Positions 4,195-64,000 of a DNA stretch of 64,000 nucleotides are shown in pieces. The stretch is from NCBI RefSeq assembly GCF_005222915.1, contig NZ_STFX01000024.1, forward strand, positions 62,001 to 126,000. Direction: 5' to 3'. Source of the stretch: Rhizobium sp. FKL33 (GTDB lineage Bacteria > Pseudomonadota > Alphaproteobacteria > Rhizobiales > Rhizobiaceae). The position numbers and the translations under genes are program-made. Position 1 is the first letter of the stretch; each line of letters starts with the position of its first letter. The notes below the pieces were generated by a model. It saw only the letters and a list, made by a program, of their open reading frames with translations, was not told where the DNA came from and ran no database searches.

Positions 4195-5421
4195 TTGCCC
4201 ACGCCCTATTTGTCCATCTGCGTTCCCTCGCGGAACCGGCAGCGCTATTTCAAGGAGTTGATCGCTTCGCTCCTCGCCTCTCCGCGCGCCGATGTGCACT
4301 TCGTGTTCGCCGACAATTCCGACGACGCCGGCGAGATGGCGGGGTTTCTGGCGGCAAGGCCCGATCCGCGCGTGACCTTTCTGCCCTCGCAGCCGCGCGT
4401 GCTCTCCATGCAGGAAAACTGGGAGCGGGCAGTGGATGCCGCTTCGGGCGACTGGGTCAGCGTCATCGGCGACGACGACCAGATCGACCCCGAACTCGTC
4501 GAGGCTTTGAGGCTCGCCGAGGCCCTGAAGCCGGGACTGGACGCCTTCGCCTGGAGCAATCTGCATTACGGCTGGCGGACGGCGGAGACGCCGCGGCGCA
4601 ATGTGCGGCTGCCGGTCAAGGCGACGTTTCACGACATGCCCGCCTGGTTCGTGCGTCGGCGCGCCTTTGGCTGGGCCGACGCTTCGGCCACCATCGTCAG
4701 CGGCTTTTCGATCTATCACGCGGCGCTGTCGCGGCGGCTGCTGCGGCGCATCCGCAAACGGTTCGGCGACGTCTGGTTCGGCCATCCGATCGTCGATTAC
4801 GACGCGGCGCTGAAAACGGCGGCCGAAGGCGAGGCCTTTGTCTATTGCACGCGGCCCTTCTCCACTTTCGGCGCCTGTCCCGAGGCCAATTCGGCGGCGC
4901 TCTACGATCTCAAACGGCTGCGCGAGGCGCATGACCGCTTCGACCGCGAGACCGGTCGCGAGACCGACCGCGACCCCTGGCTCGCCGACTTTCCCTTTCC
5001 CACCACGCTCGGCCTGCCGGCGGCGGTGGGCCAGGTGCAGATGTGGCTTGTCCATACGCATGGCGTGGCGATGGAGCCGGGCTGGGAGGCCAATTTCGCC
5101 CGCGCCTCAGCCGCCTATTGCCGGGGCTTTACCGACAAGGCGGATTTCGAGACGATTTCGACGGAATTGCGCAAGGTGTTTTCGCGCTGGCGCGGCGGCG
5201 CCTTCGCCTCCGCCTTCCAGCCGGAGTTCCAGCCGCCGCTCAAGGGTGACATCTTCACCGGGTTGAGCGGCGACGGGCTCTATGTGGCGGACGATATCGG
5301 CGGCGCGAGGTCGCCGACGGAGTTCTACGCAGTAATGAACGGTCTGCTCGAACGTCCCGCGGAACTGAAGCCGGAACTGCGTTCGGCCGGCAAGGAATTC
5401 GCGCTTCTCAACGCGCTCTGA
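4195..5421 (+). CDS. Family 2 glycosyltransferase
   Basis: A 408-residue GT-A-type protein. The N-terminus YLSICVPSRNRQRYFKELI is the classic GT2 nucleotide-sugar entry strand, and VIGDDDQIDPE holds the DxD-like metal and nucleotide-binding motif. No membrane segments are visible, so it is probably cytoplasmic or peripheral. The acceptor and donor cannot be read from sequence, and no polysaccharide cluster surrounds it. The start is a TTG preceded by GGAG at good spacing; no ATG is available before the conserved first strand. Confidence 0.83.
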   Translation: MPTPYLSICVPSRNRQRYFKELIASLLASPRADVHFVFADNSDDAGEMAGFLAARPDPRVTFLPSQPRVLSMQENWERAVDAASGDWVSVIGDDDQIDPELVEALRLAEALKPGLDAFAWSNLHYGWRTAETPRRNVRLPVKATFHDMPAWFVRRRAFGWADASATIVSGFSIYHAALSRRLLRRIRKRFGDVWFGHPIVDYDAALKTAAEGEAFVYCTRPFSTFGACPEANSAALYDLKRLREAHDRFDRETGRETDRDPWLADFPFPTTLGLPAAVGQVQMWLVHTHGVAMEPGWEANFARASAAYCRGFTDKADFETISTELRKVFSRWRGGAFASAFQPEFQPPLKGDIFTGLSGDGLYVADDIGGARSPTEFYAVMNGLLERPAELKPELRSAGKEFALLNAL

Positions 5422-5431
5422 CACGTGCGCG

Positions 5432-6325
5432 TCAGCCGCCGGCGAGGCCGAGCAGCGCGGCGTCGAGCGCCTTGAGATAGGCGGCGATCAGCGCGGCGCC
5501 GCCGCCGAGATCGTGGCGGCCGTAACGGGCGGCGACGCGGACATCGACCAGCGTCGTCTCTTCTTCCTCATGCAGTCGGATGACGATGTCCTGGCGGAAG
5601 CCGAACACGAGGGTGCGATGGGCGCCCTGGATGAAGGCGTCCTGCGGCTGGGCGGCGGCGAGGAAGGCCTCGATGTCGGGCCGAGGCTCCGGCACGGGCA
5701 CGACATCGGGAGCGTCGGCGGCGGGCCCGCTGGTCTGGCCCGAGGGCAAGGCCCGGAGGTCGTCGCTCGGCCCGCCTCTTTCGGCGGTGATCCGGACGCC
5801 CATATCGAGCGCCACCTGCCGGGCGGCGGCATAGACGCGGTCGAGGCCGCCCTCGTAGCGCCGGCCGGTGAGGCCCGGATAGGCCGCCTGCTGCAGCAGC
5901 CGGTCCGCTTCGCCCGGCGGCAGGCGCGGCCCGAGCCAGGATTGATCGACCTTGCTTTCTTCCAGCCATTGCGGCGGCCGCGCCAGATCGGTGGCGACGT
6001 CATAGATCGGCGGCGTTTCCAGATAGTCCCGCGCCATCCAGCCGGTTGCGCCCAAGATGGGCAGCGACACGAGAATGGCCTGGGCCGAGGCCGCCCCGCC
6101 CCGCGCGCCATAGCGCCAGAGCATGGAGAGGCCGACACAGGCCATCAGCGTCGCCACCACTGTGACGGCGGCGGCGACAGCGGCAACGGCCAGAAACAGC
6201 GGCGTCTCGAAACTGCCGAACCGGTGCAGCACCGACGCGACGACGAAAAACAGCAGGGAATAGAGGGCGAGACGGCGAGACGAATAGGCCGATTGGGAAA
6301 CAGGGCGTTCATACCGGACCGGCAT
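5432..6325 (-). CDS. DUF1499 family membrane protein
   Basis: A 297-residue protein with two to three N-terminal membrane segments (about residues 16-35, 42-65 and 80-95) followed by a DUF1499 domain, recognised by PPIYDVATD near residue 120 and a later VYAAARQVALDMG segment. The function of DUF1499 is unknown. The start was set at the ATG preceded by GAGGAG; a longer frame upstream lacks such a site. It converges on the glycosyltransferase with 10 bases between stops. A short inverted repeat (CTGAC/GTCAG) spans that junction and is too weak to call as a terminator. Confidence 0.78.
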   Translation of the reverse strand: MPVRYERPVSQSAYSSRRLALYSLLFFVVASVLHRFGSFETPLFLAVAAVAAAVTVVATLMACVGLSMLWRYGARGGAASAQAILVSLPILGATGWMARDYLETPPIYDVATDLARPPQWLEESKVDQSWLGPRLPPGEADRLLQQAAYPGLTGRRYEGGLDRVYAAARQVALDMGVRITAERGGPSDDLRALPSGQTSGPAADAPDVVPVPEPRPDIEAFLAAAQPQDAFIQGAHRTLVFGFRQDIVIRLHEEEETTLVDVRVAARYGRHDLGGGAALIAAYLKALDAALLGLAGG

Positions 6326-6505
6326 TCGGGCTCCTCGACAGCAATGTGCAAGCCGACATTTCAGACCTCCGACATAGGCCGTTTCACGCAACGGAGCAAT
6401 GGCGACGCCCAAGCGCTCCCCATGTTCTGGCGGGGCGCCGCCTCAAATCCGCCCAGCTTTGCCGGGAGTGTGGCGAATGGCGGGGACGACGAACAGGAGA
6501 TCATC

Positions 6506-6901
6506 ATGCAAACCTCTTCCCAGGCCGCCCTGCCGGCGCCCTTGTCGATCAATGGTCCGAGCTCGCGGACGCCCGAACCGATCGAATTCACCGAACTCTC
6601 GCTGACCGTCGACCTCCTGCTCGAAAGCCATCCGGTGTTCGCAGACGCGGTCAAGGCGGCGCTCTTGCCGCTCGATGGGGAATTCCTGTTCGATCTGCCG
6701 CATGCGGGCAAGCCCGGCGGCAAGGGCCGCGTGGCTGCGGTGCGCATCCGCTATGCCGGCTCCTACGAGGCCAAGCTCGCCTTCGTCTTTCTCTCCGACG
6801 ACGCCATGGACGCCCGCGTCGCGCCGCCCGACAGCGAACTCGCGCATCTCAAGAGCTTCGCTGAGAGTTTCGTCGGCGTTCTGGAGAAATTCGCCGACTG
6901 A
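6506..6901 (+). CDS. Hypothetical protein
   Basis: A 131-residue soluble protein that I do not recognise. A Pro/Ser-rich N-terminus of about 25 residues precedes a compact alpha/beta region containing DGEFLFDLPHAG and VRIRYAGSYEAKLAFVF, and a helical end. The start is the ATG after AGGAG; the same frame stays open far upstream but only as antisense to the DUF1499 gene. It lies divergent from DUF1499 and 75 bases before the EamA transporter, with which it could share a transcript. Confidence 0.6.
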   Translation: MQTSSQAALPAPLSINGPSSRTPEPIEFTELSLTVDLLLESHPVFADAVKAALLPLDGEFLFDLPHAGKPGGKGRVAAVRIRYAGSYEAKLAFVFLSDDAMDARVAPPDSELAHLKSFAESFVGVLEKFAD

Positions 6902-61963: not shown

Positions 61964-62159
61964 AGGCAGGGCCTGCTACCCCTCAGGATCGAGGCGCATC
62001 ACAGATGGGAAATATCCTCCGCCCGGTTAGCCGACGCTCACGATGACTGATGATTTTCTCGCTCTCAAAGCTCCGCCGACGTCGACAGCCATTGCCCTCC
62101 TGCATTAACTTGTCATTTGAGCGCCCCCAGCGGCGGCGCCGGAGCGAATGGGAGGACGC

Positions 62160-62561
62160 ATGCTGATCGGATCCTGTCATTGCCGCAAAACCGGCTTCAC
62201 GCTGACAGGCGATCCCGGCTCGATCACCGCCTGCAACTGCACGCTCTGCCGCCGCTATGGCGCGCTCTGGGCCTATGACTACGAGGGCGAGCGGATTGCC
62301 ATCACCGGCGAGACGGCGTCTTATACGCGCGTGGACCGCACTGAACCCAGCCTCGAAATCCTGTTCTGCCCATCTTGCGCATGCGTGGTGAGCTGGCGGG
62401 GTCTCAGAAACCAGGCTGACGGACGCAGGCGCATCGCCGTCAATGTCAGGCTCGCGCCGCCGGAGGCGGTCGCTCATCTGGCGATCGATCATTTCGACGG
62501 GCTGGAAACCTGGGAGGATCTGCCCTCGCAGGGCAAGTGCGTGCGGGATTTGTGGTTTTGA
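62160..62561 (+). CDS. GFA/CENP-V-type zinc-binding protein
   Basis: A 133-residue protein of the glutathione-dependent formaldehyde-activating enzyme fold. Zinc ligands are visible as GSCHC near the N-terminus, CNCTLC (residues about 29-34) and CPSCAC in the middle. Members bind two zinc ions; only some act in formaldehyde detoxification, so the reaction is not claimed. GGGAGG precedes the chosen ATG; an ATG 12 bases earlier is in frame. It is a single gene. Confidence 0.85.
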   Translation: MLIGSCHCRKTGFTLTGDPGSITACNCTLCRRYGALWAYDYEGERIAITGETASYTRVDRTEPSLEILFCPSCACVVSWRGLRNQADGRRRIAVNVRLAPPEAVAHLAIDHFDGLETWEDLPSQGKCVRDLWF

Positions 62562-62723
62562 AGCAGGGAGGCACATCCGCGCTTGACCTGTCAGTCGACG
62601 GCTGCGTAGCTGGTGGCGATTGCGGATCAAGAGGAGCCCGTTCGGCACTCAGTTCCTCCTGTTAGGGAGACGCGCTGTCTATGGTCTGAATCGCAATCCA
62701 TGTCTCGATCTTAGGTATTCCAT

Positions 62724-64000
62724 ATGTCGATATTTGATTGGCTCAAACATGACAGACCACGAAAGCAGGCACAACCAAAGCCAGAGCAAAGCGGCTATCA
62801 GGTCTATTGTACCGAATATGACCGCATCATTCCCGCCACAAAAATAAACGAAGTTCTCGGCCCGCTCTGGATTGGCGGGGAGACGTCGCTGAACGAAGCG
62901 TGGAATGCCATGCTATTCGGCATGGCTCCAATCAGAGAGCTGTGGCAATCACATTTCGTGACGGTATGCCAGAAGCTGCGCGGAGCGCTGTCCCCAGAAG
63001 ACCTAGAGGACTGCGTTGTCTGCATTCTCATCGATCACTCCGGATCGATGCGGGGCAGGTCAATAACCTTCGCCGCATTGGCCGCCGATGCCGTGCAAAA
63101 AGCTCTGCGTGATCTGGATTGCAAGGTGGAGGTGCTGGGCTTCACCACCTCGACCTGGCATGGAGGCCTCTCACGCTCTCGCTGGGCGCGAAAAGGAAAG
63201 CCTCGAAATCCGGGACGCCTGTGTGATCTGCTGCACATCGTATACCGTTCGGCGGATGACATGCGATCAGCACCAATCGGGCTTCCTCTAAAGGACATGC
63301 TGCGTGATGATCTTTTAAAAGAAAATGTTGACGGCGAAGCCCTCGAATGGGCTGCAGGAAGACTGAGGCTGCGTCCGGAAACGCATAAATTCCTGATCGT
63401 TATGTCGGATGGCGCCCCCGTCGATAATGCGACGCTGACTGAAAATCCCGGTTCCTACCTCTGGGATCATCTCAACGAGACCATCGGCAGCATTCGCGCG
63501 GCGGACGATATCGCTCTGATCGGCATAGGCTTGAGTTATGACGTCCAGACGCTTTACCCGAACTCTGTCATGGTGGAAGACTATGGGACGCTCGGCGCCG
63601 AGATGTTCGATGTTCTAGGGCGAACTATGCTCGCACGGATTCCGAACAACAGCGCCGAAAATCCTGACAGAACAGAGGCTGATACCTGGCTTCCAGGCCT
63701 ATGGAAAAAAGCGGAAGACGAGACAGATGAGGCCTATGCCCAGCGTCTCCGCGCGAATGGAGATATGCCCCTCGACATCATCAAGGCCCTGCGCAGCAAC
63801 ACCAAGATGGGTCTGGACGCAGCCCACAAACTCGTCGTGTCGGATCGCGAAATCGAGATATTCCTGAGGGCGAATAGGGAGCGCGGCGTCGAGAGGCGCG
63901 GCATGATCCGTCTGTTGCGCCGGGTCTATGGCTGCACAAATCAATCAGCCATCGCCCATATCGATCGAAGCGGGCTTTGGAGGGAGACCGAAAGCCTCCC
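62724..64000 (+). CDS. CobT-like VWA protein with an L7/L12-like segment, partial at right edge
   Basis: The frame runs from this ATG through the right edge without a stop; 425 complete codons are visible. An in-frame TAG just upstream fixes the start as the earliest ATG; the ribosome binding site (AGG) is weak. Residues 25-48 (YQVYCTEYDRIIPATK) and the VWA domain from about 96 to 300 match the C-terminal half of cobaltochelatase subunit CobT: MIDAS LIDHSGSMRGR (residues 103-108 DHSGS), VEVLGFTTSTWHGG, GKPRNPGRLCDL, LLKENVDGEAL and FLIVMSDGAPVDN. The long acidic N-terminal half of CobT is absent. Residues about 349-371 (PLDIIKALRSNTKMGLDAAH) resemble the L7/L12 C-terminal domain helix-turn. 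Codon use is less GC-biased than in the neighbours (ATA, CTA, TTA, AGA), suggesting transfer. Genuine CobT is unlikely without CobS/CobN in view. Confidence 0.82.
   Translation, partial: MSIFDWLKHDRPRKQAQPKPEQSGYQVYCTEYDRIIPATKINEVLGPLWIGGETSLNEAWNAMLFGMAPIRELWQSHFVTVCQKLRGALSPEDLEDCVVCILIDHSGSMRGRSITFAALAADAVQKALRDLDCKVEVLGFTTSTWHGGLSRSRWARKGKPRNPGRLCDLLHIVYRSADDMRSAPIGLPLKDMLRDDLLKENVDGEALEWAAGRLRLRPETHKFLIVMSDGAPVDNATLTENPGSYLWDHLNETIGSIRAADDIALIGIGLSYDVQTLYPNSVMVEDYGTLGAEMFDVLGRTMLARIPNNSAENPDRTEADTWLPGLWKKAEDETDEAYAQRLRANGDMPLDIIKALRSNTKMGLDAAHKLVVSDREIEIFLRANRERGVERRGMIRLLRRVYGCTNQSAIAHIDRSGLWRETESL

Follow-up and report, generated by a model that had tools for sequence, protein, structure and literature searches.

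A short CobT-type VWA gene as single-gene cargo in a variable chromosomal slot of Rhizobium sp. FKL33

What might a protein do that is built around the VWA domain of CobT, lacks the N-terminal region of CobT and carries a predicted helical module behind the domain? The question is raised by a gene at the right-hand end of a 64,000-nucleotide stretch of Rhizobium sp. FKL33 DNA (contig NZ_STFX01000024.1, positions 62,001 to 126,000; here called the window). An earlier note, made from the letters of this stretch, had described the gene as a shortened CobT-type VWA protein with a tail resembling ribosomal protein L7/L12, lying in atypical DNA, and had named no known system with this pairing. Among the literature matches listed, which covered few subscription journals, we likewise found no description of the pairing of a CobT-type VWA domain with such a tail, of short CobS-free CobT-VWA proteins or of TIR-CobT fusions. 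The features of the locus are collected in Table 1; in the extended contig, the last codon and the stop of the gene lie just beyond the window edge.

Table 1. Features of the short VWA gene and its slot, in window positions
Feature	Position	Strand	Basis or remark
Conserved GFA-family gene, left flank; its stop codon is the left slot edge	62148..62561	+	Sister-genome comparison
Variable cargo slot, up to shared right-hand sequence beginning at about 64007, outside the window	62562..64000	.	Sister-genome comparison
Short CobT-type VWA gene, 426 aa	62724..64000 (stop at equivalent of 64004)	+	ORF in extended contig
YQVYCTEYD motif, residues 25-33	62796..62822	+	Common to CobT and short relatives
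CobT_C / VWA domain, residues 95-302	63006..63629	+	Pfam CobT_C, E = 2.7e-54
MIDAS motif DHSGS, residues 104-108	63033..63047	+	Alignment with CobT rows
MIDAS aspartate D229 (SDG motif)	63408..63410	+	Alignment with CobT rows
C-terminal module, residues 331-416, six predicted helices	63714..63971	+	AlphaFold2; homologous to stand-alone R. alvei gene
Possible repeat 1, residues 331-372, holding most of the L7/L12-like hairpin	63714..63839	+	
Possible repeat 2, residues 373-414	63840..63965	+	Gapless self-shift of 42

The shortening is borne out by profile searches. Pfam CobT_C scores 184.6 bits on the window protein (cut-off, 21), and only about 95 residues stand ahead of the VWA domain and its MIDAS site, whereas the genome's own CobT is 632 aa long in total. 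These residues keep the YxVYxTEYD motif and little else of CobT. The two proteins are 50% identical over residues 94-299 of the window protein, and the TIGR01651 equivalog, which describes full-length CobT, reaches 213.9 bits and thus stays below its cut-off of 759.05. In a PDB sequence search, two matches reached E ≤ 1, the CobT chains 21vt (E = 3.5e-56) and 9uka (E = 8.9e-56). With CobT of CobNST (PF11775), the window protein therefore shares a VWA domain with the CobT-specific core and the MIDAS residues; it differs in the missing N-terminal region, in having neither CobS nor CobN nearby and in the added helical tail. Pfam recognised no TIR or other effector domain in it. The DNA is atypical as well: the gene has a GC content of 0.558, compared with 0.631 for the window, and its third-position GC (0.624) is the lowest, and its total GC the second lowest, among 33 ORFs of at least 250 aa, a set that was made with a crude picker, counts the short VWA gene in and probably contains some spurious frames.

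The MIDAS residues D104, S106, S108 and D229 are present. The window protein also has the consensus residue at 13 of 15 near-invariant CobT columns, in each of which 21 or more of the 23 reference CobT rows agree (CobS lies nearby in 19 of these rows; the other 4 are full-length rhizobial rows unscreened for CobS); the exceptions are K to R at residue 175 and R to H at residue 221. The full-length AlphaFold2 model, made from a six-row alignment, has a mean pLDDT of 71.0 and a pTM of 0.60 and predicts a VWA fold with a MIDAS site. It is of low quality over residues 1-50, a large part of 144-200 and the 309-330 linker; residues from about 144 to 200 are a CobT-specific insert, parts of which have low confidence, and helices are predicted for most of residues 38-95, although confidence is low ahead of residue 55. 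Among the 50 Foldseek matches to the PDB that were listed, the best are NorD (E = 2.3e-7) and the MIDAS domain of midasin (E = 4.8e-6), both of them VWA partners of MoxR-type AAA+ proteins. Since the MIDAS serves to capture a substrate peptide in VWA partners of MoxR-type ATPases (PMC7159879, in excerpt), and since the best structural matches are such partners, we infer that the window protein may capture a peptide or protein in the same way.

The AAA+ partner that the earlier note had thought possible just to the right of the gene was not found in the extended contig. A phytase-like gene, in convergent orientation, lies downstream. Over the surrounding 19.9 kb, tblastn found no CobS-like gene, and the one Walker A motif in the picked ORFs lies within the phytase-like ORF; on the strength of the contig extension and these two scans, an AAA+ gene to the right was rejected as the partner. 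An ordinary cobNST operon does not follow on the right either, as the note had left conceivable: the window gene is on contig C19, CobS and CobT are together on C11, and the sole CobN-family match is on C54, so that in this assembly the true CobT also lies apart from the CobN match. MoxR-VWA gene pairs are usually linked, which counts against reading the window protein as a VWA co-chaperone that serves a MoxR-type AAA+ ATPase, encoded elsewhere and distinct from CobS, in the assembly of some complex. We consider such a role improbable, even with NorD and the midasin VWA domain as the best structural neighbours and with MoxR-VWA coupling described as general (PMC7159879, in excerpt), in view of the lack of any recognised AAA+ gene around the window gene and of a patchy distribution ill-suited to a housekeeping chaperone. 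Compared with the MoxR-VWA systems as a whole (NorQ-NorD, midasin and the VWA ternary conflict systems of PMC7159879, in excerpt), the window protein shares the MIDAS residues and, by prediction, the VWA fold, and it differs in having no adjacent AAA+ gene.

CobS is missing from the surroundings of the relatives, too. In tblastn searches with two queries (the genome's own and a Photobacterium sequence; E ≤ 1e-3), a CobS-like gene was found near 0 of 11 short or fused loci, with flanks whose length varies among loci and which at L054 end at the end of the VWA gene. The corresponding count was 24 of 31 for the other viral CobT loci, some at only ∼1e-9 and perhaps representing other AAA+ genes, and 5 of 5 for full-length plasmid loci, whose selection was guided in part by the pair being known beforehand. 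At L055, a BCS1-like AAA+ ORF was recognised by eye a few genes downstream of the VWA gene. The 0 of 11 argues against a trans-acting modulator of the host cobaltochelatase, in which the short VWA protein would compete with CobT for CobN or ride the host CobS ring and thereby tune cobalamin synthesis. So does the patchiness of the short gene, the N-terminal profile of the short proteins being found in 3 of 297 family genomes, one of them the window's own, versus 290 of 297 for CobT-type VWA of any kind; nor was any link of the tail to B12 seen. Speaking for a modulator are the CobS, CobT and CobN-family genes on other contigs of the genome, the retention of 13 near-invariant columns with one of the two changes being K to R, and the proposal that viral CobST hijacks host CobN (PMC8651126, in excerpt). 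On balance we hold this explanation to be unlikely, though a serious contender. Our preferred reading, in which a VWA recognition module has come loose from the cobaltochelatase, is nevertheless weakened by the near-complete conservation of the CobT core, which could equally mean that CobN or CobS is still bound.

Comparison with sister genomes revealed how the gene is embedded. In one of them, G084, the left flank is matched at 90% as far as the GFA-family stop codon, and the match resumes, at 90% over 6.0 kb, where the VWA gene has its 3' end. A second, G297, matches at 91-92% beside the edges, which lie at most 8 bases from those of G084. The space between the edges is taken by a glycosyltransferase-61 gene in G084 and by ∼3.4 kb in G297, where the picked ORFs (350, 168, 307 and 281 aa) appear by eye to include ketoacyl-synthase-like, methyltransferase-like and transporter genes. 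Because two sister genomes hold unrelated genes between the same edges, we conclude that this chromosomal slot is swappable and that the short VWA gene is its sole cargo here. Directly behind the VWA stop, on the right edge common to the genomes, lies a perfect inverted repeat of 12 bases, apparently a terminator that the sister genomes share, and no target-site duplication was recognised at the slot edges. A third sister, G224, has the phytase-like gene with other neighbours and therefore gives no information on the slot; the phytase-like protein has no match in 4 of 9 genus genomes. The slot and the low GC together support the accessory origin that the earlier note had suggested, and both the architecture of the gene and its status as cargo are well supported.

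Such cargo might have been gained recently, have no selected function and be decaying. The low GC, the single-gene content, the failure to find a sigma-70-like promoter upstream of the gene and a Sinorhizobium fredii relative that is split over two frames would all fit decay. We find it quite improbable, however, since the window frame is intact over 426 codons with its MIDAS residues kept and 5 of 6 clade members have intact frames.

The C-terminal tail was modelled separately. AlphaFold2, applied to residues 331-425 with an alignment of two rows only, predicts six helices and no strand (mean pLDDT, 90.5; pTM, 0.76), and the full-length model agrees over residues 331-420 (block means, 73-92). 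The C-terminal domain of L7/L12 has an alpha/beta fold, and because the predicted fold of the tail has no strands, the reading as an L7/L12 domain fails; structure prediction of the tail had been set beforehand as a check on it. In Foldseek searches against the PDB, the tail had no match below E = 0.87, and L7/L12 was absent from the 37 rows. The Pfam L7/L12 profile (PF00542; cut-off, 25.9 bits) gave 12.2 bits (E = 0.24) with the full protein and 14.6 bits (E = 0.041) with the tail alone. We therefore rejected an L7/L12 fold for the tail. What survives of the earlier claim is the likeness of a single helical hairpin near residues 352-373, where 11 of 22 residues are identical to L7/L12 and 0 of 2000 shuffles did as well; the corresponding match of a Rhizobium alvei relative is weaker, being reached by 0.55% of 2000 shuffles. 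A PDB profile search also gave 6 sub-threshold rows, of which elongation factor 2 came first (E = 0.44) and L7/L12 chains filled ranks 2-6 (E = 0.61-0.96). Both the hairpin and these ranks would suit a module of L7/L12 type with translation factors or the ribosome as its binding partner; weighed against the fold, Foldseek and Pfam results and the weaker R. alvei hairpin, we regard such a module as very improbable.

The tail may contain an internal repeat. In a gapless self-comparison of the tail and its R. alvei relative, a shift of 42 residues stands out: its score was reached by 11 of 2000 shuffles of columns and by 12 of 2000 when the hydrophobic pattern was preserved. The helix starts of the AlphaFold2 tail roughly fit this period (5/44, 19/61 and 34/76). 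In pairwise repeat tests, short pieces were negative for the window protein and longer pieces gave weak signals. With evidence of moderate strength, the tail is thus perhaps made of two 42-residue repeats that would have arisen by duplication.

The module is rare. It was found in 2 of 394 family genomes, namely the window's own and that of Rhizobium alvei (G163), and among 297 order genomes in the window's own, apart from an adenylate-cyclase-like ORF in G128 (E = 8.8e-4; 1 of 297 genomes) whose match we ascribed to chance. It had no match in the plasmid collection (E ≤ 0.01), in the phage collection (E ≤ 1) or in the viral contigs; the GTDB and viral scans for the tail use short seed patterns, which divergent copies may escape. 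The R. alvei copy is a stand-alone 196-aa gene without a VWA domain (L052:5959-6549 / L049:1459-2049; GC, 0.486). In it, the helical module is followed by a further C-terminal part, which occurs in no other of 297 family genomes, and the protein matches no PADLOC model. The superinfection-exclusion protein Ltp (PDB 4eqq) was considered as a relative of the tail and dropped (Foldseek E = 5.5, TM 0.42; hhalign probability of 0.2% in a weak test against the single phage TP-J34 Ltp sequence). In this analysis, two proteins carry the tail module, an orphan domain of small size.

Where, then, does the VWA domain belong? We built a tree of 53 VWA rows from the 57 loci given, four being left out. The window protein falls in a clade with L010, L006, L005, L011 and the phage sequence L053 (ultrafast bootstrap/SH-aLRT, 90/97), nested in a 99/96 group that also holds full-length rhizobial CobT. 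Short copies also occur on megaplasmids of Sinorhizobium fredii and Pararhizobium, and the four best of 35 relatives from viral contigs (L053 to L056) are short or fused proteins. The remaining viral rows branch outside the 99/96 group. The phage CobST pairs (PMC8651126, in excerpt) thus resemble the window gene's relatives in having a CobT-type VWA on phage DNA, and they differ in this placement and in mostly having CobS at hand. The 11 short or fused rows do not form one clade, requiring 4 changes, and a single origin was recovered in 0% of 200 bootstrap trees; the short/fused label is clustered nonetheless, with 0 of 500 shuffles as low. End branches measure 0.11-0.58 in the window clade and 0.014-0.11 for rhizobial CobT rows; as the latter rows are densely sampled, the difference may reflect sampling rather than rate. 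In Sinorhizobium fredii pSF45436b (L005:8004-8914), the short VWA gene runs over two frames and is either broken or misread. The viral contig L056 encodes a 577-aa protein (positions 4945-6678), in which CobT_C stands behind ∼350 residues without a Pfam match over the cut-off.

Two settings brought phage-host conflict into view. L053 is a phage contig, in which the VWA gene stands alone on the opposite strand within a cluster of tail genes; five genes neighbouring it each match a PHROG tail family, although in two of the five the tail match ranks behind a family of unknown function. The second setting is that of the TIR-VWA fusions. One of them, L054 (IMGVR_UViG_2770939490_000001), is on a phage contig and lies behind phage tail and DNA-methylase genes, and the other is on Agrobacterium pAtCG920, where L007:1-9834 holds a ThsB-type TIR gene, a caspase gene, a DUF262 gene (HEC-05 model), the fusion and a further ThsB-like TIR gene. 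These neighbours (the two ThsB-type TIR, caspase and DUF262 genes) match PADLOC models, and both fusions match the PADLOC model PDC-S66 over their TIR parts (E = 2.1e-8 and 3e-7), which are 52% identical to each other. A search of 337 order genomes at E ≤ 1e-15 yielded no additional TIR-VWA fusion; a relative in G554 proved to be a TIR without a VWA. Like the window protein, the fusions have a CobT-type VWA with no CobS found nearby and a mobile or defence-like setting; unlike it, they carry an N-terminal TIR and no helical tail, and they pair on a branch of their own (99/95).

CobT-like genes occur elsewhere in other forms as well. Matches were obtained in 517 plasmid records, 323 of them from Klebsiella and 144 from Acinetobacter; the Acinetobacter records among the 40 matches listed are mostly ∼110 kb and look like phage-plasmids. 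CobS-CobT-like pairs are present on plasmids or megaplasmids of Photobacterium, Burkholderia, Paraburkholderia and Cupriavidus (L105, L106, L107 and L008), beside genes identified by eye as sulfoacetaldehyde acetyltransferase, phosphate acetyltransferase and a TauE-type transporter, as if a second CobST pair served in taurine or sulfonate use. Rhizobium leguminosarum pRlX5 has a diverged CobT-type VWA ORF of 320 aa with no CobS found nearby (L104:5761-6723), and in Methylorubrum extorquens AM1 a diverged CobT-type VWA lies at the end of an ORF (L103, near 6001-6612). Viral cobST clusters have been described and are thought to hijack host CobN (PMC8651126, in excerpt), and CRP-810 phages carry cobS and cobT (PMC11288001, in excerpt). 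CobNST, jumbo-phage MoxR-VWA, NAD-linked conflicts and VWA conflict systems are treated in PMC7689651, PMC7824862, PMC9503650 and PMC7159879, respectively, all in excerpt.

The reading that we tentatively prefer, with somewhat less than even confidence, is that of a VWA recognition module that has been decoupled from the cobaltochelatase and is perhaps used in phage-host conflict. The protein would consist of a CobT-derived VWA domain without the CobT N-terminal region, unlinked to CobS and CobN, plus the helical C-terminal module. Most likely, its MIDAS metal site would grip a peptide of a target protein, as in VWA co-chaperones, and the helical module may offer a second contact or effector surface. 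The protein would act as a recognition adaptor, either alone or with an unlinked AAA+ protein. Because the near relative L053 lies on phage DNA and because TIR fusions exist, phage-host conflict, either superinfection exclusion or defence, appears to be its most likely arena. Several observations weaken this part of the reading: the window protein has no TIR or effector domain, matches 0 families of PADLOC-DB (2023) at E ≤ 1 and has ordinary metabolic genes as its neighbours; the TIR fusions lie off the window clade, and the short or fused rows are of more than one clade; and L010 and L011 (loci L039 and L040) sit among ordinary chromosomal genes. The L053 VWA protein, for its part, has no PADLOC model match. 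The fold is predicted, and the function of the window protein is inferred at moderate strength.

A wider and more doubtful extension, which we offer as a conjecture, is that CobT-type VWA domains freed from the cobaltochelatase have become metal-dependent recognition modules of an undescribed phage-host conflict system, occurring as single genes in slots or phage DNA and having exchangeable parts, either a TIR in front or a helical module behind. CobT-like genes on phages and plasmids frequently carry annotations as vitamin B12 or porphyrin enzymes. That CobS-free proteins with the CobT metal site turn up in a cargo slot, on phage DNA and, in the form of TIR fusions, within a defence-like cluster suggests that such annotations may mislead in some cases, and the CobS-free CobT-VWA group points to a testable use of the domain other than in B12 synthesis.
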